From Streptomyces sp. NBC_00582 (GTDB taxonomy: Bacteria; Actinomycetota; Actinomycetes; Streptomycetales; Streptomycetaceae), in NCBI RefSeq assembly GCF_036345155.1, contig NZ_CP107772.1:62001-126000 (forward strand): 64,000 nucleotides of DNA, given 5' to 3'. Under the pieces are notes generated by a model, which searched no databases, was not told the DNA's origin, and was given only the letters and a program-made list of their open reading frames with translations. The translations under genes were made by a program, and so were the position numbers. Shown piece by piece: positions 14,831 to 31,203 of this stretch. How positions within the stretch are numbered: position 1 is the first letter of the stretch; every line of letters starts with the position of its first letter.

Positions 14831-15031
14831 GAGGCGTTCGGCGAATGACCGTGTAGTTCAAGCCCGGCGACACCGCGCATGCGGTGGAGCAACTCGACTG
14901 GATGCGGGCGGTGTTCTTCGCCAACCGCCCAGACGACCCCGGCGGCGGTACACCTTCGGGCCGTGCCTGCGCGGCGTCGAAGCGGGCCGACCGCATCAGA
15001 TGCCTGTGCGACGAGGCCGGCCGTGCCCTTG

Positions 15032-15655
15032 TCAGTGGTGGCGCGGGCGGGGCAGCAGGGCGAACGCGGTCTCCGCGATCGAGGTCAGGCGGTCGGGGCC
15101 GTGGCCGTACGCGCCTACGACATCGCTGCCGCGGATGACGGTCAGCACAAGGTAGGCGAGGTCGTCGGGGTCCGCGTCGGGGTCGATGTCGCCGTTGCGC
15201 TGCGCCGCTCGCACGCAGTCGGCCACCGCCGTCCGGACCACGGAGAAGCAGTCGTTGGCCAGGCGTTGCACCTCGGGATCGGAGCCGCCGACCTCCAGGG
15301 CCATCTTGGCGGCGAAGCAGGCCGCCGCCGCCCGGTCATCGGCGGGGGGTACGTCGGCGGCGAGCGGCACCCCGTGGACGGCGCGCAGCAAGTACGCGTG
15401 CAGTCGTTCCAGGGCGCCCTCATCCGGTCCGTCGAGCATCTTCCGCGGACCCTGCGCCAGCCGGGCGAAGTAGCCGGTCATCGCCTGCAGCAGCACGCCG
15501 TGCTTGCCGTCGAACGCGGCATAGAGGCTGCCGCGGCCCAGGCCGGTGGCGGCGCTGATGTCGTCGACGCTCGTGCCGTTGTAGCCCGAGGCGCGGAACT
15601 GCCGCTCAGCGGCATGCAGGACGTGGTCGGGGTCAAAGCTTCGTGGTCTCGCCAT
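15032..15655 (-). CDS. TetR-family repressor, likely owner of the repeated operator
   Basis: 207 residues. The N-terminal HTH (VDDISAATGLGRGSLYAAF) is followed by an all-helical ligand domain of the AcrR/YcdC-like type. The ATG at 15655 begins MARPRSFD, a typical TetR opening. The gene diverges from the SDR at 15828, with operator copy 1 between them (15683-15735), so it probably represses itself and the SDR. A deleted copy of the gene flanks operator copy 2. The same operator precedes four other transcription units, which makes it the likely master regulator of 15-30 kb. Confidence 0.88.
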   Translation of the reverse strand: MARPRSFDPDHVLHAAERQFRASGYNGTSVDDISAATGLGRGSLYAAFDGKHGVLLQAMTGYFARLAQGPRKMLDGPDEGALERLHAYLLRAVHGVPLAADVPPADDRAAAACFAAKMALEVGGSDPEVQRLANDCFSVVRTAVADCVRAAQRNGDIDPDADPDDLAYLVLTVIRGSDVVGAYGHGPDRLTSIAETAFALLPRPRHH

Positions 15656-15682
15656 ACAAAGACGGTAAAGCGGACCCACCCT

Positions 15683-15735
15683 TCTTGACAACCCAGTACA
15701 GAACCGCCTAGGTTTCCGACTGTTCAGTACACAAC
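15683..15735 (+). promoter_or_regulatory. Repeated promoter/operator module, copy 1
   Basis: TTGACA at 15685 and TAGGTT at 15709, spaced 18 bases, form a good promoter for the SDR. GTACAGAAC (15696-15704) and GTTCAGTAC (15722-15730) form an inverted repeat (8 of 9 positions) that brackets the -10 box, so a bound dimer pair would block RNA polymerase. It also lies about 30 bases from the divergent tetR start. Four further copies occur at 22281, 22633, 24662 and 28774. Confidence 0.75.
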
Positions 15736-15827
15736 CTTTCTGAGCTCACCGGGACCGGCTTGGTCCGGGCTTGCAGAACCGGTGCGCGCACCGTGTCGGT
15801 CATGGCCACACAACCGAAGGAACCACC

Positions 15828-16643
15828 ATGCAGACAGCTCCCCCAGTAGCCCTCGTGTCGGGCGCCTCCTCCGGGATCGGGCGGGCGGCAGCGCGCGCCC
15901 TCGTGGGTGCCGGCTTCGCGGTGGTCGGCACGAGCCGCAACGCGGCGAACGCCGAGCCGCTCCCCGGGGTGACGTTCCTCGATCTCGACGTGGCCGACGA
16001 CGAGTCGGTCCGCTCCCTGGTCGAGGAGGTGATCGAGCGGTTCGGCCGAATCGACGTCCTGGTCAACAACGCCGGCGTGGGCGCGGTCGGCGCCGGCGAG
16101 GAGAGCTCGATCCACCAGGCCAAGGAGGTCTTCGACATCAACGTCTTCGGCGTGATGCGGATGACCAACGCAGTGCTGCCCCACATGCGCGCCCAGGGCA
16201 GTGGCCGCGTGGTCAACGTCTCCTCGGTCCTCGGTCTGATCCCAGCCCCCTTCATGGCCGTCTACGCCGCCACCAAGCACGCGGTCGAGGGCTACTCCGA
16301 GTCCGTCGACCACGAGCTTCGCGAGCACGGCGTCCGGGTGCTGCTGGTCGAGCCGGCCTACACCAGCACGAGTTTCGAGGCGAGCAGCATGGCGCCCGAC
16401 GCGCCCCTGCCGATCTACGCCGCACAGCGGGAGATCTCCCGGGACGTGCTGGCCACGGCCGTGCGCAACGCCGACCACCCGGACGTCGTCGCGAAGGTGA
16501 TCGTCGCGGCCGCCACCGATTCCAAGCCCAAGCTCCGCTACACCGCCGGCCCGATGGCCAGACGCGTCAGCGCCCTGCGCCGGATCGTGCCCTCGCGCGC
16601 CTTCGACCAACAGGTCCGCAAGCTCAACCGACTGGCCGGCTGA
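15828..16643 (+). CDS. Short-chain dehydrogenase/reductase
   Basis: 271 residues, classical SDR with VSGASSGIGRAAA near residues 10-22, LVNNAGVG near 82, a Ser in VNVSSVLG and the YAATKHAVEGYSESV active site near 146-155. It resembles the oxidoreductases that precede an alpha/beta hydrolase in actinobacterial catabolic or detoxification clusters. The ATG at 15828 follows GAAGGAACC. It is the first gene under operator copy 1, and the hydrolase at 16753 follows within 110 bases, probably in the same transcript. Confidence 0.88.
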   Translation: MQTAPPVALVSGASSGIGRAAARALVGAGFAVVGTSRNAANAEPLPGVTFLDLDVADDESVRSLVEEVIERFGRIDVLVNNAGVGAVGAGEESSIHQAKEVFDINVFGVMRMTNAVLPHMRAQGSGRVVNVSSVLGLIPAPFMAVYAATKHAVEGYSESVDHELREHGVRVLLVEPAYTSTSFEASSMAPDAPLPIYAAQREISRDVLATAVRNADHPDVVAKVIVAAATDSKPKLRYTAGPMARRVSALRRIVPSRAFDQQVRKLNRLAG

Positions 16644-16752
16644 CCCCGCAGTACACCCGGCGCCCGAGCAGACGCACATGTCCAGAACCAGAGACACAGA
16701 AGCCGGCATCAGCAAACTCTCGCCCGACCACTCTTGGAAACGGCTGACACCC

Positions 16753-17595
16753 ATGGAGTTCGAACACGTCACGTTCGACCTGCCACACGGCACCTTCCAC
16801 GCGCTGCAGGGTGGTGACCCCGATGGGCGACCGACGCTCGTCCTGCACGGCTTCCCGGACCATCCGCCGACCGCGAAGCCCTTCCTCGCCGAGCTCGGCC
16901 GCCGCGGACGTCACGTCCTCGCACCCTGGCTTCGCGGTTACGCGCCGTCCCCGACCGCGGGGCCGTTCGACTTCGCATCCCTCACCAGCGACGTGCTCGC
17001 GCTGATCGACCGCTGGTCTCCCGGGCGAGCCGTGGAGTTGGTCGGCCACGACTGGGGCGCCTTCATCACCTACGATGCCGTCGCCACCGCGCCGGAGCGG
17101 ATCGAACGCGCGGTCACGCTCGCCATCCCCCACCCACGCACGTTCCTGAAGCTGCTGCGCCCCGCGCAGCTGCGCCGGAGCTGGCACATGGGGCTCTTTC
17201 AACTGCCGGGAACCGGCTGGCTGGCCGGCGCCCGCGATCTCGCCCTCATCGACCACCTCTGGCGTCAGTGGTCGCCCGGCCTCTCGCTCGATCCAGCTCT
17301 CCAGGCGGAGCTGCACAAGGACCTGCGGGCGAGCATGCCCGCGCCCCTGAAGTACTACCGGCAGATGATGCGACCCAGCATGCTCGGGGTGTTGCGCCGC
17401 ACGTCTCAGCCGATCAAGGTACCCCTGCTGCAGCTCCACGGTGCCGACGACGGCGGCATCCTCCCCCCGCAGATCGACGACCGGCATCGGTTCGCCGCCC
17501 CGCACGCGCTGGAGATCGTCCCCGACGTCGGTCACTTCCTGCACGTCGAGGCCCCCGAGGCGATCGCGGAACGGATCGCGGCATGGGCCCAGTAG
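16753..17595 (+). CDS. Alpha/beta hydrolase (epoxide hydrolase-like)
   Basis: 280 residues. The oxyanion-hole motif HGFPDHP lies near residue 33 and the nucleophile elbow GHDWGAF near 97, where Asp replaces Ser as in epoxide hydrolases and haloalkane dehalogenases. A cap domain follows, and the C-terminal HGADDG and GHFLHVEAPE supply the acid and His. The start is set at MEFEHV; an in-frame ATG at 16678 is possible, and neither has a strong ribosome site. It shares the unit with the SDR. A paralogue lies at 25050-25985. Confidence 0.82.
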   Translation: MEFEHVTFDLPHGTFHALQGGDPDGRPTLVLHGFPDHPPTAKPFLAELGRRGRHVLAPWLRGYAPSPTAGPFDFASLTSDVLALIDRWSPGRAVELVGHDWGAFITYDAVATAPERIERAVTLAIPHPRTFLKLLRPAQLRRSWHMGLFQLPGTGWLAGARDLALIDHLWRQWSPGLSLDPALQAELHKDLRASMPAPLKYYRQMMRPSMLGVLRRTSQPIKVPLLQLHGADDGGILPPQIDDRHRFAAPHALEIVPDVGHFLHVEAPEAIAERIAAWAQ

Positions 17596-17649
17596 CGGAT
17601 CACTCGACCCCCGCGGCGAGACCACCCGAATGGGCGTCGCGGGGCCGTC

Positions 17650-17790
17650 CGGCAGACCGAGGTCGACCGGCTGCCGGTCCTCGGGGCGCGGCACGTGGAG
17701 ATCGGCCAGGGAGAGCAGTCCTGGACCACACTGGTGGACCCGCACGGCAACGAGTTCTGCCTGCTCGGCCCGCGGCGGAGCCGACCGGAG
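17650..17790 (+). pseudogene. VOC/glyoxalase-fold protein, C-terminal remnant
   Basis: In one frame the sequence reads QTEVDRLPVLGARHVEIGQ, then SWTTLVDPHGNEFCLLGPR. This is the last beta-alpha unit of a VOC-superfamily (glyoxalase/bleomycin-resistance) protein, including the metal-site Glu in GNEFC. The start and first 80 residues are missing, replaced by the end of the hydrolase gene 55 bases upstream. It lies 90 bases before the receiver/reductase gene. Confidence 0.65.
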
Positions 17791-17882
17791 CGAAGCAGGG
17801 CGACGACCACACAATGTCTGAAAGGCGGCGCGGCACCGAGCCGGCGCCGACCGGTGATCCGATCACTCGAGGTGAGAGACGT

Positions 17883-19559
17883 ATGGCACAGACCGCGGAC
17901 GCTGCGCGGACCGTCATCATGACCGTGGACGACGACCCCGGGGTCTCCCGCGCCGTCGCCCGCGACCTGCGGCGGCGCTACGGCGCCTCGTACCGGATCG
18001 TGCGCGCGGAGTCCGGCGAGTCCGCGCTGGAGGCGCTGCGGGAACTGAAGCTGCGCGGCGACCTCGTGGCGGTGATCCTGGCCGACTACCGCATGCCGCA
18101 GATGAACGGCATCGAGTTCCTCGAACAGGCCCTGGACATCTATCCGGGCGCCCGGCGGGTGCTGCTGACCGCCTACGCGGACACCAACGCGGCAATCGAC
18201 GCGATCAACGTCGTCGACCTCGACCACTACCTCCTCAAGCCATGGGACCCGCCCGAGGAGAAGCTCTACCCGGTCCTGGACGACCTGCTGGAGGCGTGGC
18301 GGTGCAGCGACTACAAGCCGGTGCCCGCCACCAAGGTGATCGGACACCGCTGGTCGGCCCGCTCGTCGGACGTACGGGAGTTCCTGGCCCGCAACCAGGT
18401 GCCGTACCGCTGGTACTCCACCGAGGAGCCCGAGGGGCAGCGGCTGCTGACCGCCGCAGGGCAGGACGGGCAGCGGCTGCCGGTGGTGATCACGGCGGAA
18501 GGTACGGCGCTCGTCGAGCCGGAGGTGCCGGAACTGGCCGCGCACGTGGGCCTGGCGACGACACCCACGGCCGACTTCTACGACCTGGTCGTCATCGGCG
18601 GCGGCCCGGCAGGGCTCGGTGCGGCGGTGTACGGGGCCTCGGAGGGGCTGCGTACGGTGCTCGTGGAGCGGTCGGCGACCGGCGGGCAGGCCGGACAGAG
18701 CTCGCGGATCGAGAACTACCTGGGCTTCCCCGACGGCGTCTCCGGCGGCCAGCTCACCGACCGGGCGCGACGCCAGGCCACCAAGTTCGGCGCCGAGATC
18801 CTCTCCGCGCGGGAGGTGACCGGTCTGGAGAGCAGCGGGGCGGCCCGGCTCGTACGGTTCGCGGACGGGTCGCAGATCGCGGCGCACAGCGTGATCCTGG
18901 CGACCGGTGTGTCGTACCGGAAGCTGGAGGCGCCGGGTGCCGACGAGTTGTCGGGCCGCGGGGTGTTCTACGGGTCCGCGCTCACCGAGGCCGCCGCCTG
19001 CCAGGGCCACGACGTGTACATCGTCGGCGGCGCCAACTCGGCCGGGCAGGCGGCGATGTACCTGGCCCGGGGCGCCAAGTCGGTCACTCTGCTGGTGCGC
19101 GGAGCGGACCTCACCGCGTCGATGTCGCACTATTTGATCCAGCAGATCGCCGAGTCGCCGAACATCTTTGTACGGGCCCACACGGTCGTCGAGGCCGCGC
19201 ACGGCGACAACCACCTGGAACAGCTGACGTTGCGCGACACGACGAGCGGGCAGACCGAACTCGTCGACGCGCAATGGCTGTTCGTGTTCATCGGCGCGGC
19301 CCCGCTGACCGACTGGCTGGACGGCACGGTGTCGCGGGACGAGCGCGGGTTCATCCTCGCCGGGCCCGATCTGACCGCCGACGGGCGGCCACCGGCCAAC
19401 TGGGAGCTGGACCGGCCGCCGTACCACCTGGAGACCGACATTCCCGGCGTGTTCGTCGCCGGGGACGCGCGCGCCGAGTCCGCGAAGCGGGTCGCGTCCG
19501 CCGTCGGAGAGGGAGCCATGGCCGTGATGCTCGTCCACCGGTATCTGGAGCAGTCATGA
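17883..19559 (+). CDS. Fused response-regulator receiver / thioredoxin-reductase-like flavoprotein
   Basis: 558 residues. The receiver domain (about 10-130) has acid-pocket D16/D17, phospho-acceptor D68 in ILADYRMP, T96 and K119, all intact. After a linker, a pyridine nucleotide-disulphide oxidoreductase domain (about 233-555) shows the FAD-binding GGGPAG at 239-244 and the NAD(P)H-binding VGGANSAGQ at 381-389. The redox CxxC of true thioredoxin reductases is absent: that segment reads VFYGSALTEA (361-370). It is probably a flavin reductase or redox sensor controlled by phosphorylation. The start has GAGGTGAGAG upstream, and its stop overlaps the kinase start (ATGA). Confidence 0.88.
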   Translation: MAQTADAARTVIMTVDDDPGVSRAVARDLRRRYGASYRIVRAESGESALEALRELKLRGDLVAVILADYRMPQMNGIEFLEQALDIYPGARRVLLTAYADTNAAIDAINVVDLDHYLLKPWDPPEEKLYPVLDDLLEAWRCSDYKPVPATKVIGHRWSARSSDVREFLARNQVPYRWYSTEEPEGQRLLTAAGQDGQRLPVVITAEGTALVEPEVPELAAHVGLATTPTADFYDLVVIGGGPAGLGAAVYGASEGLRTVLVERSATGGQAGQSSRIENYLGFPDGVSGGQLTDRARRQATKFGAEILSAREVTGLESSGAARLVRFADGSQIAAHSVILATGVSYRKLEAPGADELSGRGVFYGSALTEAAACQGHDVYIVGGANSAGQAAMYLARGAKSVTLLVRGADLTASMSHYLIQQIAESPNIFVRAHTVVEAAHGDNHLEQLTLRDTTSGQTELVDAQWLFVFIGAAPLTDWLDGTVSRDERGFILAGPDLTADGRPPANWELDRPPYHLETDIPGVFVAGDARAESAKRVASAVGEGAMAVMLVHRYLEQS

Positions 19560-21034
19560 GCGGGCAACTGATGCCGTGCGCCCCCGAGGAGATCGGGTCG
19601 CTGTTCCTCTTCGAGAAGCTCAGTGCCGAGCAGCTCGACAGGCTGTGCAGCGCGGGACGGGTCGAACTGTTCGGCCCCGGACCTGTGTTCACCGAAGGTG
19701 ACCCGGCGACCGACTTCTACGTGATGGTCGAGGGCACGCTCGTCATGTCGCGCCGGGTGGGCAGCGACGACATCGAGGTGAGCCGCACGTCCCAGCGAGG
19801 GGTGTACGCGGGGGCCGTGATGGCGTACCTCTGGGACGGGAAACCGCAGCGGTACATGAACTCGGTGCGGGTGTCGGAGCCGACGCGGTTCTTCGTGCTG
19901 CCCGCCGCATCGTTCGCGAACCTCGTCCACGAGTGGTTTCCGATGGCGGTCCATCTCCTGGAGGGGCTCGCCCTCGGTTCGCAGACCTTTCAGCGGGCCG
20001 TCGGGCAGCGCGAACGGCTGCTCGCGCTGGGCTCGCTGTCCGCAGGCCTCACCCATGAGCTCAACAACCCGGCCGCGGCGGCCGCACGAGCCACCTCGTC
20101 ACTCAGGGACCGGGTCGCGCACATGCGCAACAAGCTCGGCGCCATCGCCTCGGGCCCCTACCACGGCGACGTCCTGAAGGCCCTGGTCGACCTCCAGGAG
20201 CGTACGGCCGAGCGGGTCTCCAAGGCGTCGGCACTGAGCCCGCTCGAGGCGTCCGACCGGGAGGACGAACTCGCCGACTGGCTGGACGACCACGGTGTCC
20301 CAAACGGCTGGCAGATCGCGCCGACCTTCGTGCAGGCCGGTCTCGACGTCGACTGGCTGGAGCAGGTCGCGGCGGCCATCGGCGAGCAGGAGATCCTGCC
20401 CAGTGCCATCGAGTGCCTCAACTACACGGTCGAGGCCGAGCTGTTGATGTCCGAGATCGAGGACTCCACCACCCGTATCTCGCACCTCGTCGACGCCGCC
20501 AAGCAGTACTCGCAGCTGGACCGCGCGCCCTACCAGGTCACGGATGTGCACGAACTCCTCGACAGCACGCTGATGATGCTGTCCGGGAAGATCGGGCAGC
20601 AGATCAAGGTGGTCAAGGAGTACGACCGGACCCTGCCGAGGATTCCGGCCTACCCGGCCGAGCTGAACCAGGTGTGGACGAACCTGATCGACAACGCGGT
20701 GCAGGCCATGAACAGTGTGGGCGGGGAGGGGACGTTGACCGTCCGGACCGCGCTGGAGCACGACCGGCTGCTGGTGGAGTTCCGGGACACCGGGCCCGGG
20801 GTGCCGGCGGACATCCGCGGGCGGATCTTCGACCCCTTCTTCACCACCAAACCGGTGGGCGAGGGCACCGGGCTCGGGCTCGACATCTCCTGGCGGATCG
20901 TCGTCAACAAGCACCACGGTGACCTGAAAGTCGAGTCCGTACCCGGCGACACCCGCTTCCAGGTGCTGCTCCCCCTCACCGCCATCGACACCGAGCCCGA
21001 TACCGTCCCCGACCCGGCCCAGGAGCCCTCATGA
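19556..21034 (+). CDS. Sensor histidine kinase with cyclic-nucleotide-binding-like domain
   Basis: 492 residues, with no membrane segment. An N-terminal cNMP-binding-like domain (about 12-125) precedes a HisKA-type region with the phospho-acceptor H167 in GLTHELNNP. The ATPase domain has its N-box in LIDNAVQAM (near 376-384), G1 in DTGPGVP (near 411) and G2 in GEGTGLGLDI (near 435). It overlaps the receiver/reductase gene by 4 bases, so the two are a cognate cytoplasmic pair. The downstream gene of the usual three-gene cassette begins at 21031 but is truncated. A segment of this gene is duplicated at 23893-24172. Confidence 0.88.
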   Translation: MSGQLMPCAPEEIGSLFLFEKLSAEQLDRLCSAGRVELFGPGPVFTEGDPATDFYVMVEGTLVMSRRVGSDDIEVSRTSQRGVYAGAVMAYLWDGKPQRYMNSVRVSEPTRFFVLPAASFANLVHEWFPMAVHLLEGLALGSQTFQRAVGQRERLLALGSLSAGLTHELNNPAAAAARATSSLRDRVAHMRNKLGAIASGPYHGDVLKALVDLQERTAERVSKASALSPLEASDREDELADWLDDHGVPNGWQIAPTFVQAGLDVDWLEQVAAAIGEQEILPSAIECLNYTVEAELLMSEIEDSTTRISHLVDAAKQYSQLDRAPYQVTDVHELLDSTLMMLSGKIGQQIKVVKEYDRTLPRIPAYPAELNQVWTNLIDNAVQAMNSVGGEGTLTVRTALEHDRLLVEFRDTGPGVPADIRGRIFDPFFTTKPVGEGTGLGLDISWRIVVNKHHGDLKVESVPGDTRFQVLLPLTAIDTEPDTVPDPAQEPS

Positions 21035-21093
21035 CCAAGGACACCGGAATCGACCCCGGCGTCCCGCCCAACGGGGCCGGGACGAGGGGCTGA
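21031..21093 (+). pseudogene. UBP-type zinc-finger gene, first 20 codons only
   Basis: The ATG overlaps the kinase stop (ATGA). The translation MTKDTGIDPGVPPNGAG matches the N-terminus of small UBP-type zinc-finger proteins that normally form the third gene of this redox cassette. After 20 codons it hits TGA, and none of the Cys/His residues of the zinc finger follow. The downstream sequence is unrelated. Confidence 0.6.
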
Positions 21094-21448
21094 CCCGTCT
21101 CGCCGGTGTGCTGGTCCGGCCCCGTGTCCGCGAGGCCCGTGCCGTGCTCATCGCCGGGGACGCCGGGGTGTGCGCGGCGGGCCTGGACATCCCCGACGAC
21201 GTCGGCATGAAACCCACGCACCACGCCGTCCACGTCGGCCCGGGTACACATCGCTGCGAAGGACACGGTGTTCCACGTCAGCGATCACTCCTCCTACAGG
21301 GACCCCGCACGAGGACGACGCTTGCGAGTTCCTGGCAACCCTCCTCGCCCCGTGGTGACGACAGCCCTGTACGAGATCGAGACCAGCGAAGCCGACTGCC
21401 GCGATTTGGGTTGCTGGTCGGCCCGTACCCGTTGCCTCGCCGCCGGGC
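21094..21448. other. Degenerate stretch between the kinase cassette and the isomerase-like gene
   Basis: Plus-strand frames give fragments that look protein-like (AGLDIPDDVGMKPTHHAVHV; then, shifted, FHVSDHSSYRDPAREDDAC) but do not join into one frame and match no family I can name. It is probably one frameshifted gene relic that replaced the rest of the zinc-finger gene. Confidence 0.35.
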
Positions 21449-22243
21449 TCAGAACCCGGGGAAAATCCTGCGCAGGTCGTCGAGGGTGACGGTGTCACCG
21501 GTGAGGGTCACGGAAGAGGGGGTGTGGGCGGGGGCGTGCCGACCGGCGACGAGTCGCAGCCACCACTCGGCGGGAGCCGTCAGCACGGCGTCGGCGTTCT
21601 CGGGTTCGCCGGTGAGCGCGACCGTCTCGCCGACCGAGAGACCGAAGGCGCGCTCGGGTGCGGTGGTGTGCACCGCGACGGCGACGGGGCGGTTCTCCAG
21701 GGCGTCCGCCTTGCCGATGAAGCCCAGCATCATGCCGGCCTGGTCGAGGAGCGGCCCGATCGCGGCGGACGCCAGGGTCGTCGACGGGTCGAAGGCCACC
21801 TCGACGTCCCACGAGTGGTGGGTGAGCTCACCGAGCCGGAGCCCCGCCGCGGTCGCGACGTCCACCGGCGCGGGCAGGAAGCCGAGGTCGATCCGGAGGT
21901 CGCTGCGGGCCCCCGCGTCGAGGCCCTCGTAGCGTTCGACCAGCGCCTGGTTGGCGGTGACGAAGCCTTCGGCGTGCTCGGCCGGGGTCATCGCGTCCCA
22001 GCGGGCCCACACCGACTTGTTGAAGTCGCCGTCGGGGGCACCCGTACCGCCCATCGCGCCCTCCAGTACGGCCAGGCCTATTTCGGCGCCGCTGCCCAGA
22101 TGGCCGAGCACCTGGGAGACGTCCCACTCCGACGCGCCGGACGGGCGGGTGAGATCGGCCGTGGTGAGTCTGTGCACCACAGCGGCGAGGTGGTCGTGCC
22201 CGCTGCGCAGGGCGTCGATGATCCGGTCTGCGGCTTCAGTCAT
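21449..22243 (-). CDS. Maleylpyruvate-isomerase-like, mycothiol-dependent family protein
   Basis: 264 residues of the DinB/MDMPI type. The N-terminal four-helix part (AVVHRLTTADLTRPSGASEWDVSQVLGHLGSG) carries the metal-ligand His, and TTHHSWDVEVAF-like residues (LTHHSWDVE) give the second and third. The C-terminal half (FGLSVGETVALTGEP; WWLRLVAGRH) is the MDMPI C-terminal domain. The ATG has GGGGAAAAG upstream. Operator copy 2 lies 38 bases before it in the same direction, so it is part of the TetR regulon. A thiol-transfer or isomerisation role in detoxification is inferred. Confidence 0.8.
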   Translation of the reverse strand: MTEAADRIIDALRSGHDHLAAVVHRLTTADLTRPSGASEWDVSQVLGHLGSGAEIGLAVLEGAMGGTGAPDGDFNKSVWARWDAMTPAEHAEGFVTANQALVERYEGLDAGARSDLRIDLGFLPAPVDVATAAGLRLGELTHHSWDVEVAFDPSTTLASAAIGPLLDQAGMMLGFIGKADALENRPVAVAVHTTAPERAFGLSVGETVALTGEPENADAVLTAPAEWWLRLVAGRHAPAHTPSSVTLTGDTVTLDDLRRIFPGF

Positions 22244-22280
22244 GTTCTTTTCCCCAATGAAGGCCCGTGAGCTCAGGATG

Positions 22281-22331
22281 GTTGTGTATTGAACAGCCGG
22301 AAACCTAGGCAGTTCTGTACTGAGTTGTCAA
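22281..22331 (-). promoter_or_regulatory. Repeated promoter/operator module, copy 2
   Basis: On the minus strand this reads TTGACA, then GTACAGAAC, CCTAGGTTT and GTTCAATAC with the same spacing as copy 1. The second arm has one change (GTTCAATAC). It points at the isomerase-like gene, whose start is at 22243. A deleted tetR copy flanks it on the other side, which mirrors the divergent layout of copy 1. Confidence 0.75.
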
Positions 22332-22337
22332 GAAGGA

Positions 22338-22570
22338 CGGTCGGCTTTACCGCATAGGGCGAGGCCGCGAAGCTTTGACCGCGACCACGCCCTCCATGCC
22401 GCCGAGTGGCAGTTCCGCGCCTCGGGCTGTCATCCGCGGCATCGACGTCGTAGGCGCATACGGCCGCAGCCCCCGCCGCCCCGCCCCCGCCGCCACTGAC
22501 AAGGACACGGTCGACCTCGTCACGCAGGCATCCGAGGCGGCCGGCCCATCTGGGCGCCACGCAGGCACGC
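22338..22570 (+). pseudogene. Internally deleted copy of the tetR gene
   Basis: The first 24 codons match the start of the 15655 tetR gene (RPRSFD, HALHAAE, QFRASG equivalents). The start codon is ATA instead of ATG. The sequence then jumps from the end of helix 1 directly to the last 20 codons of the ligand domain (VIRGIDVVGAYG). Some 500 bases in between are gone, including the recognition helix, so no repressor can be made. It stands divergent to operator copy 2, as the intact gene does to copy 1. Confidence 0.75.
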
Positions 22571-22632
22571 TCGCACGCACACGGCCACCGCCGTCGCGAC
22601 CGCGAAGGAAAGGTGAAGCCGGCCCACCACAG

Positions 22633-22684
22633 TTGACAGCTCGGTACAGAACCGCCTAGGTTTCCGACTGTTCAGTACACAACT
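22633..22684 (+). promoter_or_regulatory. Repeated promoter/operator module, copy 3
   Basis: TTGACA at 22633, GTACAGAAC, CCTAGGTTT and GTTCAGTAC at the same spacing as copy 1. It points rightward toward the truncated hydrolase (22720) and the methyltransferase (22955). The 20 bases upstream of the -35 box also resemble those of copy 1, so the duplication included part of the tetR leader. Confidence 0.75.
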
Positions 22685-22719
22685 GTCCTGGGCTCACTGG
22701 ACAGGCTGCGTACACGTCT

Positions 22720-22915
22720 GGCGCCATCACCGTCCCGTCGCTCTACCTCCACGGGGCCGACGACAACTGCTTTTCCAGTGGAGTTGAGCGACAGCACGGA
22801 CGACCTGTTCACGAACGGCTTCGAACGCATCGTCATACCCGGCGCGGGGCACTTCCAGCACCTCGAACAGCCCAAGACGGTCGCCGACCACATCCTCGGC
22901 TTCCTGAACAGCTGA
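22720..22915 (+). pseudogene. C-terminal fragment of the alpha/beta hydrolase
   Basis: This duplicates 25793-25985 nearly base for base (SLYLHGADDNC, then FTNGFERIVIPGAGHFQHLEQPK, ending ILGFLNS). One extra T near 22771 shifts the frame, and the first two thirds of the gene are missing. It is joined directly to the leader of operator copy 3, so the 5' part was lost by a deletion or the copy was partial when made. The 40 bases after it are also shared with 25986-26025. Confidence 0.85.
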
Positions 22916-22954
22916 CCCCGCCAGCCACCCAGAACTCGAAGGACTGACCGAACC

Positions 22955-23752
22955 ATGACTGACAAGGAAAGGCAGGAGGCCATGGCTGTGACGACTCCTT
23001 TCGTGGAAAAGCACCGCGGCACCGAGGCCATGCTGGCCGTCCTCGACGCGATGGACCAGATGCCGAGCGCCAGCCTGCTGCGGGCCCGCTCCTACGAGCT
23101 GCTGTCTCTTGTCCCGGGCTCGTCCGTCGTGGACGTCGGCTGCGGTGCCGGGCGGGCCGTCGCCGAGCTGGCCGAGCGTGGCGTCCACGCGGTGGGCGTG
23201 GATCCCGATCCGTGGATCCTGGCCGAGGCCCGGAAACGGTGGCCGGGGGCCGAGTTCCGGGAAGCGGGGGCGGAGGATCTGCCGTTCGCCGACGGAAGTG
23301 TGCGCGGCTACCGTGCCGACAAGGTCTTCCAATTCCTTCAGGAGCCGTGGCGCGCGGTGACGGAAGCGCGGCGCGTCCTCTGCCCGGGCGGCAGGATCGC
23401 CCTGGTCGGGCAGGACTGGGACGCCATCATGATCGACTCTGATGACGCGGCGCTCACCCGCACGATCGTGCACGCCCGCGCCGACCTCCTGGGCACCCCC
23501 CGCGCCGCCCGCCAGTACCGCAACCTGCTCCTGGACGGCGGCTTCAACGACGTCACCGTCGAGGTGCACACCAGCGTGTTCACCGATCCAGCGATGCTGT
23601 CATTGCCCACCATGCTCGCCGAGTCGGCCTGCACGATCGGTGCCGTCAGCCGTGACCAGGCCGATGAGTGGCTCGCCGAACAGCGCCGACGCGCCGAGGC
23701 CGACCGCTTCCTCATCGCCCTTCCGTACTTCGTGGCTGCCGCCTCCGCCTAG
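22955..23752 (+). CDS. Class I SAM-dependent methyltransferase
   Basis: 265 residues. Motif I is VVDVGCGAGRAVAELA near residues 57-70, with the acidic motif II at HAVGVDPDP and motif III near ALVGQDWD. It resembles UbiE/COQ5-type small-molecule methyltransferases. The first dozen residues (TDKERQEAMAVTTP) are homologous in DNA to the start of the flavoprotein at 26026 (NDKETQETTAVATP), so the leader and first codons were shared by duplication before a different gene was joined. It is expressed from operator copy 3 if the fragment between them does not terminate. Confidence 0.85.
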   Translation: MTDKERQEAMAVTTPFVEKHRGTEAMLAVLDAMDQMPSASLLRARSYELLSLVPGSSVVDVGCGAGRAVAELAERGVHAVGVDPDPWILAEARKRWPGAEFREAGAEDLPFADGSVRGYRADKVFQFLQEPWRAVTEARRVLCPGGRIALVGQDWDAIMIDSDDAALTRTIVHARADLLGTPRAARQYRNLLLDGGFNDVTVEVHTSVFTDPAMLSLPTMLAESACTIGAVSRDQADEWLAEQRRRAEADRFLIALPYFVAAASA

Positions 23753-23892
23753 AGAGCAGATGGAGCACAGGCTGCGGGGATCCGCTTGACCGGGGAACGG
23801 TGACCACGCCTGTCAGGCGCTCGTGGCCGATGTGGGTTTCCTTGGCCGGCCGGGGGTGACCCCCTTCCGTGCGAGACGCCTGGTCATGAGGG

Positions 23893-24172
23893 TTGGGCAG
23901 CGACGACATCGAGGTGAGCCGCACGTCCCAGCCAGGGGTGTACGCGGGGGCCGTGATGGCGTACCTCTGGGACGGGAAACCGCAGCGGTACATGAACTCG
24001 GTACGGGTGCCCGAGCCGACACGGTTCTTCGTCCTGCCCGCCGCATCGTTCGCGAACCTCATGCACGATTGGTTTCCGATGGCGGTCCACCTCCTGGAGG
24101 GGCTCGCCCTCGGTTCGCAGACCTTTTTCAGCGGGCCGTCGCGCAGCGCGAACGGCTGCTCGCGCTGGCTCG
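23893..24172 (+). pseudogene. Duplicated segment of the histidine kinase gene
   Basis: This repeats about 280 bases of the kinase gene (19759 onward): SDDIEVSRTSQPGVYAGAVM, then RYMNSVRVPEPTRFFVLPAAS and LLEGLALGSQTF. Two extra T residues near 24125 shift the frame in the continuing copy. It has neither the start nor the catalytic H-box, so no product is expected. Its presence 4.1 kb from its parent shows that the cassette was copied together with neighbouring sequence. Confidence 0.85.
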
Positions 24173-24231
24173 TCAGGACTTCTCTGTGCCGCAGAACCTG
24201 GGCGCCGTTAACGAGCGGCGAACCAGGTGAC

Positions 24232-24507
24232 ATGCAACTCCTGAGGAAGGTTCGGAGCCGGATCTTCCCCGGCGGAGTCGTCGTGGCCCTCGTCCTCGCG
24301 GGGATCGGGGTAGCGGCCGAACGGCTCGACCCGGTCAGAGCCTTCGGCTCCGAGTGCCCCGGGGCCCTTCGTACGGTGCGGCGGCAGCGGGATCATGCGT
24401 CCTCCCCCTGCTGTCGGGCCTGCGCGATCAGCGCGGCCACGACGTCGTCCGACTGGTCATCGGTCTGTTCAACGACCGCGCCCATCGCGTTGGGGTGCCG
24501 CCCGTGA
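24232..24507 (+). other. Unrecognised ORF with one membrane segment
   Basis: A 91-residue frame opens with a basic start and a hydrophobic run (MQLLRKVRSRIFPGGVVVAL, then VLAGIGVAAERLD), which looks like the N-terminus of a membrane or secreted protein. After about residue 50 the sequence becomes low-complexity and Ser/Cys-rich, as expected past a frameshift. There is no clear ribosome site. It is most likely a truncated gene lying between two duplicated blocks. The rest of 24173-24661 holds nothing I recognise. Confidence 0.3.
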
Positions 24508-24661
24508 CCTGCTGCTGGAGGCGTTTCATCAGGTCGGGGTCGGTGTTGCTGCCGGACCCGGTGAGGTCCACCCGGGTCGGCCGGCGCGGGGCGATGACCT
24601 CGGGCGTGGCCGGTGCCGTTCTTCTCGGCTTCGGCGAGCGTGCAAGACCGACCCGCCGTAT

Positions 24662-24712
24662 TTGACAGCTCAGTACAGAACCGCATAGGTTTCTGACTGT
24701 TCAGTCCACAAC
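24662..24712 (+). promoter_or_regulatory. Repeated promoter/operator module, copy 4
   Basis: TTGACA at 24662, GTACAGAAC, then GCATAGGTTT and GTTCAGTCC: the right arm carries one change from GTTCAGTAC and the -10 region has CATAGG for CCTAGG. It points toward the transporter fragment at 24769 and, 340 bases on, the intact hydrolase. The 28 bases from 24743 (GCGCGATCGAGGGCAACCC) recur after copy 5. Confidence 0.72.
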
Positions 24713-24768
24713 GGTCCCGAGCTCACCGGAAGGGCTGCGTGCACGCCTGGCGCGATCGAGGGCAACCC

Positions 24769-24948
24769 ATGCCTTTGAACTCCTCCGCGCCGCCCCGCGT
24801 CGCGACGCCTTCCGGGCCGGCAAGGCCCGGTCTGATCCTCGCGATGCTGGCGACGGCAAGTTTCACCGCCGTACGGGATCTGTACATCACGAACGTCCCA
24901 AGCGAACCGGAGGCGGACTCTCCACTGGGTGCACAGCCACCGTCGTGA
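24769..24948 (+). pseudogene. N-terminus of an MFS-type transporter
   Basis: 59 codons: a short basic/Pro-rich leader and then PGLILAMLATASFTAVRDLYI followed by TNVP. This is the first membrane helix and loop of a 14-helix MFS drug transporter (normally ...DLYITNVALP). The frame stops shortly after, so only helix 1 remains. The ATG region is shared with the sequence after operator copy 5. Confidence 0.6.
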
Positions 24949-25049
24949 CCGCTCACCGGCACTGACCCCGGCTTCAGACAGCCGTACTCGCCACTTGGTC
25001 CGGGCTTGCCGGACCGCGACGCCGCGAAGGCGGCTAGGAGGTTGAACTC

Positions 25050-25985
25050 ATGACACAGGCGACCCAGCGACCGCCCTTTGGCGAGGACTCCCCGGCCGGG
25101 GGGTCCCAGGCGACCGACCGCGTCCGTCGTCGGACGGTTCAGGCAGGCGGACTGGAGGTTCCGATCCTCGAGGCCGGCAGCGGGCCGCTCGTGGTGCTCC
25201 TCCACGGGTTTCCCGACCACGCCGCCAGCTGGACAGGGACCCTCGACCGCCTCGCCCAGGAAGGGTACTGGGCGGTCGCGCCCGCACAGCGCGGATACTG
25301 GCCCGGCGGCGCGGCCCCCGACGGCTCCTACCGCATTGCCTCGACCGGTCAGGACGTCCTGACCCTGATCGAAGCGCTCGGGCGCGAGCAGGCGGATCTC
25401 ATCGGCCACGACTTCGGCGCCGCGGCGGCGTACGCGGCAGCGAGCCTCGACGCCAGACGGGTCCGCAAGCTGGTCACCATGGCGGTTCCCCATGGCCGTC
25501 AACTGCTGAACGCACTGGTCGCCGACGGTGACCAGCAGCGACGCAGCTGGTACATGTTCTTCTTCCAGACCGCCATGGCGGAGGCGGCCGTCGAGCGCGA
25601 CGACTTCGCCTTCATCGACCGGCTGTGGCGGGAATGGTCACCCGGTTACGAGCTGCCGGACGCGGAGCGCGCCGCGCTCAAGGAAACCCTGGGTGCTCCA
25701 GGAGTCCTGACCGAGATCCTCGGCTACTACCGCCAGTTGTTCACGCCCCCCGCGGACGAGGCGGCCCAAGCCCTGCAAGCCCGGGCCTTCGGCACCATCA
25801 CCGTCCCGTCGCTCTACCTCCACGGCGCCGACGACAACTGCATGACCGTGGAGTTGAGCGACGGCATGGACGACCTGTTCACGAACGGCTTCGAACGCGT
25901 CGTCATACCCGGCGCAGGGCACTTCCTGCACCTCGAACAGCCCAAGACGGTCGCCGACCACATCCTCGGCTTCCTGAACCGCTGA
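25050..25985 (+). CDS. Alpha/beta hydrolase (epoxide hydrolase-like)
   Basis: 311 residues, full length. HGFPDHAASW forms the oxyanion-hole region, GHDFGAAAAY is the nucleophile elbow with Asp, HGADDNC holds the charge-relay acid and GAGHFLHLEQP the His. It is a paralogue of the hydrolase at 16753. AGGAGG lies 8 bases before the ATG. The leader (ACTTGGTCCGGGCTTGC) is shared with the leader after operator copy 1. It is followed 40 bases later by the flavoprotein gene, so they are probably one transcript. A copy of its 3' third lies at 22720-22915. Confidence 0.88.
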   Translation: MTQATQRPPFGEDSPAGGSQATDRVRRRTVQAGGLEVPILEAGSGPLVVLLHGFPDHAASWTGTLDRLAQEGYWAVAPAQRGYWPGGAAPDGSYRIASTGQDVLTLIEALGREQADLIGHDFGAAAAYAAASLDARRVRKLVTMAVPHGRQLLNALVADGDQQRRSWYMFFFQTAMAEAAVERDDFAFIDRLWREWSPGYELPDAERAALKETLGAPGVLTEILGYYRQLFTPPADEAAQALQARAFGTITVPSLYLHGADDNCMTVELSDGMDDLFTNGFERVVIPGAGHFLHLEQPKTVADHILGFLNR

Positions 25986-26025
25986 CCCCCTCCAACCACC
26001 CAGAACTCGAAGGACTGACCGAACC

Positions 26026-27045
26026 ATGAACGACAAGGAAACGCAGGAGACCACGGCTGTGGCCACTCCCGCAGACGCGAGCGACGCACTGGCCGAGGGG
26101 ACCGTCGACGCGGTGGTGATCGGCGGGGGCGCCGCGGGGCTGAACGGTGCACTGATCCTCGCCCGCTCCCGCCGCTCGGTCGTCGTGATCGACAGCGGCT
26201 CCCCGCGCAACGCACCCGCCGAGGCCGTGCACGGCCTCCTCGCCCTGGACGGCACCCCGCCGTCCGAGATCCTTCGACGGGGCCGGGAGCAGGTGCGCCA
26301 GTACGGCGGACGCGTCATCCACGGCCAGGTGGTCTCGGCCGGGCCCGCCGCCCCCTCGGCGGACGGGGACCTGCGCTTCACCGTCACCCTGGCCGACGGC
26401 CGCCACCTCACCGCCCGCCGCATCCTGGTCGCCACCGGCGTGAAGGACGTACTCCCGGAGGTGCCCGGGCTCGCCCAGCACTGGGGACACAGTGTGGTGC
26501 ACTGCCCGTACTGCCACGGCTGGGAGGTACGCGACGAACCCATCGGCGTCCTCGCCACCGGCCCCGCTTCCATCGGCCCCGCACTGTTGTTCCGCCAGCT
26601 GACCGAGGACCTCACCTACTTCACCAACGAAACCGACCTCGACGAGGACACCCGCACCCGCTTCGCCGCCCGCGGCATCCGCGTCATCGACACCCCGGTC
26701 ACCGAGATCGTCAACGACGAGGACGGTGCCCTCGCCGGGGTGCGCCTGGCCGACGGCCAGTTCGTGGCCCGCCGCGTCCTCGGGGTCGTCCCGCAGATGC
26801 AGGCCCGCACAAAGGGCCTGGAAGGCCTGAACCTGCCGATACAGGACCTGCCCACGGGCCGCACTTTCGCCTCCGGCACAGACGGCACCACCGAGGTGCC
26901 GGGTGTGTGGGTGGCCGGCAACGTCACCGATCCGGTCGCCCAGGTCGGGGCCTCCGCAGCAGCCGGCGCACTCGCCGGCATCGACATCAACAAGAAACTG
27001 GCCGTCGCGGACACCGACGCGGCCCTCCAGAAGATCACCGCGTAA
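26026..27045 (+). CDS. Thioredoxin-reductase-like NAD(P)/FAD oxidoreductase
   Basis: 339 residues. FAD-binding VVIGGGAAGLNGAL lies near residues 29-42, the redox motif CPYCHGWE near 165, and the C-terminal FAD contact GVWVAGNVTDPVAQV near 295. The usual NADPH-binding GxGxxA segment is poorly kept (LATGPASIGPALLF). This places it with the stand-alone TrxR-like oxidoreductases, such as holomycin/gliotoxin dithiol oxidase-type enzymes, rather than housekeeping TrxB. It follows the hydrolase and is likely co-transcribed with it. A decayed copy of its last 85 codons lies at 28881-29133. Confidence 0.85.
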   Translation: MNDKETQETTAVATPADASDALAEGTVDAVVIGGGAAGLNGALILARSRRSVVVIDSGSPRNAPAEAVHGLLALDGTPPSEILRRGREQVRQYGGRVIHGQVVSAGPAAPSADGDLRFTVTLADGRHLTARRILVATGVKDVLPEVPGLAQHWGHSVVHCPYCHGWEVRDEPIGVLATGPASIGPALLFRQLTEDLTYFTNETDLDEDTRTRFAARGIRVIDTPVTEIVNDEDGALAGVRLADGQFVARRVLGVVPQMQARTKGLEGLNLPIQDLPTGRTFASGTDGTTEVPGVWVAGNVTDPVAQVGASAAAGALAGIDINKKLAVADTDAALQKITA

Positions 27046-27181
27046 AGCCCCACAGCGGCCACCCGATGATCTCGAAGCCCTGAGATCTCAGCCCGTCACC
27101 CACTCGCCTCACCTTCATCGGTGAGGAGACCAATCAGTTTCCCCGTCTGGAAGCTGATCAGTTTCCAGACGGTTCTCAGTC

Positions 27182-27280
27182 ATGCCCGCAAGCAAGCAGC
27201 ACGAGCGCCGCGCCGAGGTCAACGCCCCCCTTGACGGCTTCCTCGCCCGCCTCGACGACTTCACATCCCCAGCTTCATGA
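27182..27280 (+). CDS. Possible 32-residue peptide or relic
   Basis: MPASKQHERRAEV continues to FLARLDDFTSPAS and stops just before the monooxygenase leader. The start context (CAGTCATGCCC) is the same as that of an upstream ATG before the MFS gene (29175), because both follow copies of the flavoprotein tail. There is no ribosome site of note. It is probably a remnant of a longer gene's 5' end; a real small protein cannot be excluded. Confidence 0.25.
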   Translation: MPASKQHERRAEVNAPLDGFLARLDDFTSPAS

Positions 27281-27317
27281 ACGGCCGACCCACCCCCACC
27301 AGATGAAGGACACGACA

Positions 27318-28559
27318 ATGTCGGAGCGCAATCCCGTGGACAAGAACACGACATCGCGACAGCGGGCCCTGGTGGTCGGCCTCGGGATCAGCGGGATCGC
27401 CTCCGCACTGCGACTGCATCGCGCGGGCTGGGACGTGGTGGTGCTGGAGAAGGCCCCCGAGCGGCGCCGCGGCGGCTACTTCATCGCCCTGTTCGGGACC
27501 GGGCTCGCCGCCGCCGAACGGCTGGGCTTCGCCGATGCGGTGCCGAATCGCTTCGCTCCGGAAGGCGTGAGCTACGCCGTCGACCGAACGGGCCGGCGCC
27601 GCCCCGGTGTGAGCTACGCCGATGTGTTCGGCGGGTCTCGCATGGTACTGCGGGGCGACATCGAAGAAGCGGCCTTCACCGCCCTGCCCGACGAGGTCGA
27701 GATCCGGTACTCGACCGTGCCGACCGCGCTGGACCAGTACCTCGACGGGGTGGACGTCGAGATCCGCGACCTGACGACGGAGACGACGACTGTCGAGCGG
27801 TTCGACCTGGTGGTCGGGGCAGACGGACTGCGCTCGACGGTGCGCCGACTCGCGTTCGAGCCCGAGCAGAGCCCGATCCGTCGGCTGAACTACATGATCG
27901 CCGTGTACAGACTGCCCGAGCCGATACCCGGCTACCGCCCGCAGGACGGGCTGAGCATGATCGAGGCGGGCCGATCGGTGTGGGTGTTCTCGTTCGCCGA
28001 CCGTCCGCCGTCGGTGATGTTCTCCTACCGCACCGACGACGTGGACGCCGAGTTCACCCGGCCGGCCATCGACTCGCTGCGCGCCGCCTACGGCCCCCAG
28101 CCCACCGGCTCCACGCTCGGTTGGCTGCTCGACCAGTTCGAGAAGGCCCCGGACCACCTGTTCGACTCCGCCGAGCAGGTGCACCTCGACCACTGGCACC
28201 GCGGCCGAGTCGTGCTCGTCGGCGACGCCGCGTGGTGCCTGACCGTCTACTCCGCCATGGGGGCATCCACCGGCCTCGCCGGGGCGGACCTGCTCGGCAC
28301 CATGCTGGAACGCCACCCCCACGACGTGCCACGAGCACTGCAGGACTGGGAGGACCACCTGCGCCCGTTCATCGAACACCACCTCGGCAGCGCTGTGGGC
28401 CAGCGCAGTTTCTTCACCCCAGGCAACCGCGCCGAGTTGCTGCTTCGGTCCGTGATGCTCCGCCTCGCCCGGCTGCCGATCGCCGGCCGGCTGCTCGCCA
28501 GGACGAGGACCAACAATGCGCGGATGAAAGGCCTGGATATCGCCGCCGCTGCAGCGTGA
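27318..28559 (+). CDS. FAD-dependent monooxygenase (PHBH/aromatic-ring hydroxylase fold)
   Basis: 413 residues. The dinucleotide motif LVVGLGISGIASALRLHRAG lies near residues 18-37. DLVVGADGLRSTVR is the DG motif contacting FAD and NADPH, and RVVLVGDAAWCLTVYSAMGAS is the GD motif near residue 297. It resembles tetracycline-modifying (TetX-like) and polyketide hydroxylases. The ATG follows AAGGACACGACA. It lies downstream of the flavoprotein and upstream of operator copy 5. A detoxifying or tailoring hydroxylation is plausible. Confidence 0.87.
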   Translation: MSERNPVDKNTTSRQRALVVGLGISGIASALRLHRAGWDVVVLEKAPERRRGGYFIALFGTGLAAAERLGFADAVPNRFAPEGVSYAVDRTGRRRPGVSYADVFGGSRMVLRGDIEEAAFTALPDEVEIRYSTVPTALDQYLDGVDVEIRDLTTETTTVERFDLVVGADGLRSTVRRLAFEPEQSPIRRLNYMIAVYRLPEPIPGYRPQDGLSMIEAGRSVWVFSFADRPPSVMFSYRTDDVDAEFTRPAIDSLRAAYGPQPTGSTLGWLLDQFEKAPDHLFDSAEQVHLDHWHRGRVVLVGDAAWCLTVYSAMGASTGLAGADLLGTMLERHPHDVPRALQDWEDHLRPFIEHHLGSAVGQRSFFTPGNRAELLLRSVMLRLARLPIAGRLLARTRTNNARMKGLDIAAAAA

Positions 28560-28664
28560 GTGGACCTCCTTGCATACGAGCGGGAGAGCGAGGTCGCCTG
28601 GGCCCGCAACTTCGTCGAACGAATGCGCGGCCAGCTCGACGTCGCTGAAGTCGACCTCCTTCAG

Positions 28665-28750
28665 CAGCGGATCGAATGCGGCGCGTTGCTGCTAGCCAAG
28701 CCTGTGACCACCGAGAAACGCAGACTCGACATCCCGGGCATCGTCGTGGT
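28665..28750 (+). pseudogene. Internal segment of the MFS transporter gene
   Basis: GALLLAKPVTTEKRRLDIPG plus IVVV matches codons of the MFS gene at about 29797-29868 (GALLLLAKPVITQKPRLDIP). It is abutted by unrelated sequence on the left and by operator copy 5 on the right. Because the parent lies downstream of the same operator, this is a partial duplicate placed upstream of it. Confidence 0.8.
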
Positions 28751-28773
28751 CGGCGAGGGTCGACCTGCCGTAC

Positions 28774-28824
28774 TTGACAACCCAGTACAGAACCGCCTAG
28801 GTTTCTGACTGTTCAGTACACAAC
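28774..28824 (+). promoter_or_regulatory. Repeated promoter/operator module, copy 5
   Basis: TTGACA at 28774, GTACAGAAC, CCTAGGTTT and GTTCAGTAC, identical to copy 1 over almost the whole module (one change, CCGAC to CTGAC). It points toward the MFS gene at 29199, with the flavoprotein relic 28881-29133 in its leader. Confidence 0.76.
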
Positions 28825-28880
28825 GGTCCTGGGCTCACCGGACAGGCTGCGTCACGCCTGGCGCGATTGAGGGCAACCCA

Positions 28881-29133
28881 TGCCTTTGGTCTGGGCCTGC
28901 CGGTGCAGGACCTGCCGGTGAGCCGCGGTTTCGCCTCCGCCTGGCCGGCACCACCGAGGTGCCGGGCGGGTGGGTGGCAGGCAACGTCACCGATCCGGTC
29001 GCCCAGGTCGGGGGCCTTCGCAGCGGCCGGCGCACTGGCCGGCGCCGACATCAACAGCAGCTTGGCCACCGCGGACACCGACGCGGCCCTCCAGCAGATC
29101 GCTGAGGCAAGCCCCGCAGCGGCCACCCGATGA
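28881..29133 (+). pseudogene. Duplicated C-terminus of the thioredoxin-reductase-like gene
   Basis: This repeats 26829-27045 and about 30 bases beyond: LPVQDLPVSRGFAS, a frameshifted TTEVPG-VWVAGNVTDP segment and AGALAGADINSSLATADTD. At least two small indels break the frame. The shared non-coding tail (GATGATCTCGAAGCCCTGAG) follows in both copies, so the duplication reached past the stop codon. Confidence 0.82.
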
Positions 29134-29198
29134 TCTCGAAGCCCTGAGATCTCAGTTTCCAGGCGGCATCAGTCATGCCCACCAAGCAAGGGAAGAAA

Positions 29199-30698: not shown

Positions 30699-30839
30699 GC
30701 CTGGCCCCACCCCCACAGATGCCCTGCCACCTGCGATGACTGCTGTCCTCAGGACACGAATCAGCGCAGGAAAGCAGGGCATCTCCAGGGTTCCACCGCG
30801 ACGGTCCCCCCTGCGCATCCACGACGTGTCGTTCTTTCG

Positions 30840-31160: not shown

Positions 31161-31203
31161 TGTTGGTCAGCCGCGTGCCGGTAGGGGGTGAGGCTGGGGG
31201 CTA

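Follow-up and report, generated by a model that had tools for sequence, protein, structure and literature searches.

A repeated TetR-type promoter-operator module in a Streptomyces gene cluster: a candidate five-operon regulon and the traces of its growth

Introduction

The described systems closest to the one considered here come from Pseudomonas and from streptomycetes. In the account given in PMC8244358, the regulator CifR is freed from DNA by certain epoxides and controls an operon of three genes, those of an MFS transporter and of an epoxide hydrolase among them, while PMC3511530 presents streptomycete TetRs with less than 200 bp to a divergent gene as likely repressors of that gene. The present report concerns a stretch of 64,000 nucleotides from Streptomyces sp. 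NBC_00582 (contig NZ_CP107772.1, positions 62,001 to 126,000 of the forward strand), hereafter the window, in which a promoter-like module with inverted-repeat arms stands before five different operons over 13 kb, next to a tetR gene. The data point, with a probability of about 0.8, to a five-operon regulon whose promoter modules carry the operator of the adjacent TetR.

Two general phenomena form the background to such an arrangement, namely promoter propagation or regulatory rewiring, in which promoter DNA is transferred by recombination to a new gene, and leaderless transcription, leaderless transcripts being common in actinobacteria. Judged by title and beginning of abstract, the literature on TetR regulons, operator duplication and promoter propagation held nothing on this cluster among the matches listed; likewise, none of the listed matches to the arm sequences in print was about this cluster by its title.

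Results

The window spans C1:62001-126000 in a genome of 11.1 Mb, and the modules lie on its 10.79-Mb contig. The regulator gene and the five modules, numbered c1 to c5, are located as follows.

15032..15655, minus strand: tetR, 207 aa, with TetR_N and TetR_C_13 domains, presumed repressor of all five modules
15685..15730, plus strand: module c1, with the -35 box TTGACA at 15685-15690, arm A at 15696-15704, the -10 box TAGGTT at 15709-15714, the middle arm B at 15712-15720 and arm C at 15722-15730
22286..22331, minus strand: module c2, reading toward the MDMPI gene
22633..22678, plus strand: module c3
24662..24707, plus strand: module c4
28774..28819, plus strand: module c5

The module follows the consensus TTGACA-N5-GTACAGAAC-N4-TAGGTT-N7-GTTCAGTAC and measures 46 bp from TTGACA through the last arm in each copy. 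All its letters are exact in c1, c3 and c5 (3/5), with a single mismatch in the right arm of c2 (GTTCAATAC) and of c4 (GTTCAGTCC), and TTGACA-N18-TAGGTT is identical in 5/5. As inverted repeats, arms A and C differ at 1/9 positions in c1, c3 and c5 and at 2/9 in c2 and c4. The five copies reported in the initial annotation are present where it placed them or within a few bases, and the likeness among c1, c3, c4 and c5, which align in register over about 110 nt at 71-84% identity, extends beyond the 52 bp first noted. That annotation had also proposed scanning the genome for the consensus. At up to three mismatches, a 35-bp pattern matched ten sites in the whole 11.1-Mb genome, all in the cluster and its mirror copy: the five of the window, and five that recur in mirror order near the other end of the 10.79-Mb contig.

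Module presence was further scored, again at up to three mismatches, in 392 genomes of the genus, 19 of which contain it. At this tolerance, the reversed control pattern gave 0 sites both in the whole genome of the strain and in the entries for the 392 genus genomes. A TetR ortholog at a minimum of 88% identity occurs in 17/392 genomes, own genome included, the next matches being at 39-48%, and all 17 fall among the 19. The remaining two, G216 and G392, are drafts in which the contigs retrieved with the module break off inside tetR or at its start codon; in other words, 19/19 module genomes have tetR or contig-end pieces of it, as a multi-site regulon would predict. The module is absent at the same threshold from the other 373 genomes, 44 of them with a 39-48% TetR paralogue only. 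Copies number 1 to 5 per genome (per chromosome arm in the strain studied), and 11/19 genomes hold more than one.

A strict pattern, which misses c2, retrieved 78 modules, that is 74 in 61 named stretches and 4/5 in the window; since these stretches and the 392 genomes share species, the two sets are not independent. Full-length tetR adjoins 34 of the 78, and 33/34 of these tetR genes begin 29 bp away from TTGACA; at the one exception (L124, genome G255) the module is broken. This constant spacing and the co-occurrence in 19/19 genomes bear out the initial reading of the module as a promoter/operator and its assignment to this very TetR. The first downstream gene encodes a thioredoxin reductase (TrxR)-like protein in 26 cases, an SDR in 22, an MFS protein in 6, the hydrolase abH2 in 4 and a methyltransferase in 4, the rest being none or unknown (14) or contig end (2). 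The exact-pattern matches of the 61 stretches are mostly from Streptomyces, with others in Nonomuraea, Kribbella, Amycolatopsis, Lentzea and Leifsonia, and a variant module is found on an Arthrobacter plasmid (L152). TetR identities in other genera amount to 77-90%, which suggests that the cluster has been horizontally transferred. Of note, one stretch (L053) contains two tetR copies about 11 kb apart, at 3278-3895 and 14932-15549, with identical match statistics, and this pair may reflect a recent duplication or gene conversion.

The tetR product matches both PF00440 (E 1.7e-10) and PF16925 (E 4.5e-10) above the Pfam cut-offs. By sequence, the nearest solved structures are CifR (6nsn) and 2i10; Cys113, invariant in 17/17 aligned TetRs, aligns with a Cys of CifR. 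An identity as a gamma-butyrolactone receptor of the ScbR/ArpA type was considered and discarded, the NCBIfam ScbR-type equivalog scoring 46.4 bits for a cut-off of 150. From the tetR ATG (15655) to the ATG of the divergent SDR gene (15829) there are 173 bp, within the limit of 200 bp used for divergent targets (PMC3511530). This region also contains a candidate promoter for tetR itself.

15656..15691, minus strand: inferred tetR promoter, -35 box TTGTCA, 18-nt spacer, -10 box TACCGT, then 6 nt to the ATG (leaderless)

The TTGACAA of the forward promoter reads TTGTCAA on the tetR strand and the two -35 boxes overlap. The succession TTGTCA, 18 nt (17 in L150), TANNNT, 6 nt and tetR ATG is found in 22/22 tetR upstream regions, and a leaderless, autoregulated tetR would be the natural reading of such an upstream region.

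To avoid the bias of the pattern, conservation was assessed on 22 promoters found through tetR alone, comprising 18 of the 20 non-own ortholog matches, the own promoter, L149, L150 and L152; the two matches dropped, both from G136, have tetR cut by contig ends. Mean pairwise identity reaches 1.00 (-35 box), 0.99 (arm A), 0.955 (-10 box), 0.86 (arm C) and 0.82 (middle arm); outside the boxes, the four bases that precede the -10 box average 0.57 and the tetR-side leader 0.75, with 0.77 falling to 0.48 downstream. For comparison, the fourfold sites of tetR average 0.82. The most divergent members are L150, from another family (TetR 77%), and the Arthrobacter plasmid L152 (TetR 83%); arm C is kept at 9/9 in both and arm A at 8/9 and 9/9 respectively, with leader and downstream sequence down to 0.20-0.56. 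On arm conservation, these two distant promoters are more telling than the full set.

The geometry of the operator was compared with that before the sister TetRs, i.e. the matches at 39-48% identity, 33 of 46 of which were examined. In 29/33 promoters, 9-bp arms (at most 2/9 mismatches between arms) stand 7 bp apart, the first of them 11 nt from where TTGAC begins, in the same register as arm A. The second sister arm sits at the place of the middle arm, GTTnCnGAC, whereas arms A and C of the window are 17 bp apart; at the sister position, the five window modules have 4-5/9 mismatches to arm A, against 1-2/9 for GTTCAGTAC, which lies 10 bp beyond, that is one helical turn. Of the arms described in the initial annotation as enclosing the -10 box, the inverted repeat itself stands (1-2/9 mismatches), but its geometry is unsettled by the 7-bp gap of 29/33 sisters. 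Co-variation between recognition helix and arm sequence was looked for by eye, and no clear pattern is claimed.

The genes and gene relics around the modules, from which the history of the copies can be read, are the following.

15829..16643, plus strand: SDR oxidoreductase under c1, above the cut-off of NCBIfam PRK06179
16678-17595, plus strand: alpha/beta hydrolase after the SDR gene
ending at 19559, then to 21034, plus strand: response regulator/TrxR-like fusion, followed by a cNMP-binding sensor kinase
21449..22243, minus strand: MDMPI_N-domain protein of the maleylpyruvate isomerase family, mycothiol-dependent-enzyme-like, now under c2
22358..22480, plus strand: tetR relic of c2, in which an internal deletion joins tetR nt 3-73 to nt 517-568
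22568..22607, minus strand: tetR relic of c3, tetR nt 411-450
22754..22909, plus strand: relic of the hydrolase abH2 after c3, aa 259-310, C-terminal part
22955-23752, plus strand: methyltransferase under c3, after the abH2 relic
25050-25985, plus strand: alpha/beta hydrolase under c4
26026-27045, plus strand: TrxR-like flavoprotein under c4
ending at 28559, plus strand: FAD monooxygenase under c4, last of the c4 gene set (25050..28559)
28687..28755, plus strand: MFS gene relic upstream of c5, the DNA match ending at 28755, 18 bp before TTGACA
28888..29155, plus strand: TrxR-like gene relic separating c5 from the exporter gene
29175..30698, plus strand: DHA2-like MFS exporter under c5, scoring below the curated cut-off of each named exporter model listed

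The genes named in the initial annotation are broadly right, with the addition that c3 and c5 are followed by a relic (hydrolase and TrxR, respectively) before the methyltransferase and the exporter. Among the matches listed for the nine proteins scanned, curated cut-offs were reached by the SDR and by an MDMPI domain model only.

Around c2 and c3, the tetR relics lie between two modules facing outward. An intact tetR between two such modules exists in G180, G372, G353 and G287, with the same order, cut by a contig end, in G136, and the succession c2 - tetR relics - c3 looks like a decayed form of it. The c2 relic runs into sequence matching the region beyond the 3' end of tetR, and relics of nearly the same tetR stretch as at c3 adjoin modules in G287 (L048) and G136 (L060). 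The order module - abH2 relic - methyltransferase is shared by 4/4 such strict-pattern modules, counting c3 itself. Immediately upstream, 10/78 modules have an MFS relic, c5 among them; in 7/10 the relic stops at MFS residue 232, leaving 19-20 bp to TTGACA, and for the other three (L075, L082 and c5) the reported match goes on as far as the module, at residue 239. L043 and L061 also have the long leader seen before the c4 hydrolase. With such counterparts elsewhere, c1, c3, c4 and c5 probably predate this species. Separately, in G255 (L044 9889-10076) an MFS fragment after the broken module reaches a second, intact one, the recombination junction lying inside the operator.

The situation of c2 differs from that of the other copies. 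No module lies within 1200 nt before the MDMPI gene in 5/5 other loci compared, where the best module match before it is 21-24/51 against 47/51 here. In the window, a close match to the usual MDMPI leader (CTTCATTGGGGAAA) is retained directly after the c2 module sequence, with 37 nt from the ACAAC after the module to the ATG. This junction looks like a likely promoter capture, new in this strain. Since the flanks are homologous and relic-bearing, the sites arose by copying; the copied segments, as far as the comparison of loci supports it, exceed the operator and sometimes include tetR. The initial annotation had the regulon built by copying of the operator: copying holds, with its homologous flanks and relics, but not of the operator alone, the units being larger and at times accompanied by tetR; and other species have equivalents of c1, c3, c4 and c5, the c2-MDMPI junction alone not being seen in the loci compared.

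Some further observations concern the neighbourhood. The region 17868-21034 (response regulator/TrxR-like fusion and cNMP-binding sensor kinase) follows the SDR gene placed behind the module in many related loci. Past the methyltransferase, 23891-24168 is a kinase relic, with 94-98% identity to the cNMP-binding portion (19755-20030) of that sensor kinase. The stretch 24769-24900, the long leader that separates c4 from the hydrolase gene, begins with ATGCCTTTGAACTCC; its L061 counterpart weakly matches MFS transporters (E 3e-4 to 8e-4) and the window's own leader gave no match at 1e-3. Perhaps this leader is another transporter N-terminal relic, shared with L043 and L061. The open reading frame 30478-31095 (minus strand), convergent with the exporter gene, has an N-terminus that is TetR-like by eye and relatives that align in separate pieces; tentatively taken as a second TetR, it has no Pfam match. 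Pfam likewise gave no match for a 299-codon spacer beside tetR in L043, and 0 Rfam matches at gathering score were obtained for known RNA elements in 14500-31500.

Discussion

Computation establishes the sites, their restriction to one cluster, the co-occurrence with tetR, the footprint-like conservation, the relics, the shared arrangements and the c2-MDMPI junction; from these we infer binding, repression, transcription starts and the type of ligand. Each module would be a housekeeping-sigma-type promoter (TTGACA, 18 nt, TAGGTT) overlaid by a TetR operator, in such a way that TetR bound to the arms would cover the -10 box and block transcription. The five operons, i.e. SDR/hydrolase, MDMPI-like protein, methyltransferase, hydrolase/flavoprotein/monooxygenase and exporter, would be jointly induced when TetR is freed by a small molecule, the likeliest being an organic compound that is reactive or toxic. 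At c1, the TTGTCAA on the opposite strand probably drives a leaderless tetR transcript, by which TetR would tune its own level. As for its growth, the regulon would have expanded by recombination of promoter-carrying segments, sometimes with tetR attached, the tetR copies at c2 and c3 having presumably decayed with their operators nearly or fully intact. A response to an electrophile or a toxin is the best guess as to its function.

Several observations weigh against this five-operon regulon. No intact gene of the reference set lies downstream of 14/78 strict-pattern modules, block transfer of the whole cluster could partly explain the co-occurrence with tetR, and a G287 copy associated with the methyltransferase shows 6 mismatches. 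Regarding conservation, arm C (0.86) is only slightly above the fourfold sites of tetR (0.82) in the full set, a low figure partly due to the broken G255 copy, whose tetR-side module is interrupted a little beyond arm A, where an MFS relic takes over. Regarding geometry, the sister TetR promoters put the second arm 10 bp nearer; in L046a, L046b and L049 (3/22) the middle arm fits arm A as well as the outer one does (2/9 mismatches each); and the arm spacing shifts by one base in L047 (16 bp) and L152 (18 bp), which is odd for one rigid dimer and leaves room for two dimers.

These points on geometry bear on a different delimitation of the operator, whereby the true site would be a 25-bp palindrome as before the sister TetRs, in which a 7-bp gap separates arm A from the middle arm GTTnCnGAC, and GTTCAGTAC would be an accessory half-site or a leftover. 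The arm spacing and register of 29/33 sister promoters speak for it, as do the GTT....AC kept by the middle arm in 21/22 tetR-located promoters and the three promoters just cited where both arms match arm A equally, this last point adding somewhat to its likelihood. It is nonetheless rather unlikely given the 4-5/9 mismatches of the window middle arms to arm A, against 1-2/9 for the outer arm, and given that in the most divergent Arthrobacter copy the middle arm is only 0.67 identical to the own one when arms A and C are at 1.0.

Beyond the limits of the operator, the very existence of common regulation can be questioned. The cluster is rearranged and rich in relics, and TetRs 77-90% identical in other genera suggest block transfer; the modules might then be passive passengers, a promoter duplicated along with its neighbours, which only shared descent and block transfer would have preserved, without the five operons being regulated together. 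This seems improbable, for the modules have stayed whole, or almost so, next to enzyme relics and to tetR relics with deletions, most of the variation falls outside the boxes and arms, and one copy precedes a gene devoid of module in 5/5 other loci. That near-identical copies occur in both orientations could also evoke a mobile repeat with a promoter fortuitously inside it, but such an element, with just 5+5 genome sites in one cluster and its mirror at up to three mismatches, no conserved termini seen outside the promoter region, and a distribution over 19/392 genomes that are those with tetR or its pieces, is very improbable indeed. Copies at unrelated genomic sites, which the initial annotation regarded as the sign of a mobile repeat, were searched for in the genome and in the 392 genomes and not found. 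The five-operon regulon under one TetR remains the preferred reading.

A more tentative view, possible but somewhat doubtful as a whole, goes further. The tetR-promoter unit would be a self-contained cassette landing before unrelated genes with its own repressor, which is later shed; the operators, held by selection, would outlive the copied repressors and enzymes, with copy number ranging from 1 to 5 in related species; and in this lineage the repressor would have come to employ a second half-site set out by exactly one helical turn, the arms being centred 26 bp apart, compared with 16 bp for most sister promoters. Should this be true, the outer half-site would insulate TetR from the many sister TetR circuits of the genus. 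Besides, with its one to five copies, its relics showing which pieces were copied and its one candidate capture, the cluster is an unusually readable record of the growth of a bacterial regulon, and this TetR/operator pair is well suited to asking which operator spacing sets specificity among sister TetRs. At the physiological level, the model predicts a stress or detoxification response involving five operons.

Comparison with described systems

Among streptomycete systems, SCO7222/SCO7223 offers the same layout, with a TetR divergent to an enzyme gene at less than 200 bp and palindromic operators in between, but the description in PMC3511530 is of three TGGAACGNCGTTCCA operators in one intergenic region, unlike the one promoter-operator set here before five operons over 13 kb. 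The sister TetR promoters (39-48% TetR identity) share with the module the TTGAC, the left arm 11 nt from its start and a TA-box in the middle (29/33), followed in many, by eye, by an SDR-like start codon region; they differ by arms of their own, GTCCANNAC/GTTNTGGAC, 7 bp apart, and the module is absent from 44/45 genomes with a sister-only match, the 45th (G216) having pieces of the present tetR. With respect to promoter propagation, the copied part carries here the operator of its own regulator and sometimes the regulator gene.

The best sequence match among solved structures is CifR of the Pseudomonas cif operon, which resembles the present regulator as a divergently encoded TetR with an aligned Cys, and differs by low sequence similarity and by a single operon against five here. 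The third gene of the cif operon, morB, reportedly encodes an oxidoreductase. As presented in PMC8244358, the MFS transporter and alpha/beta-type epoxide hydrolase of that operon resemble gene types of the window. Family-level similarity and the aligned Cys would be a hint at epoxide sensing of the CifR type. Altogether, the cluster belongs to a kind of system already known, and what makes it informative is its evolutionary record.

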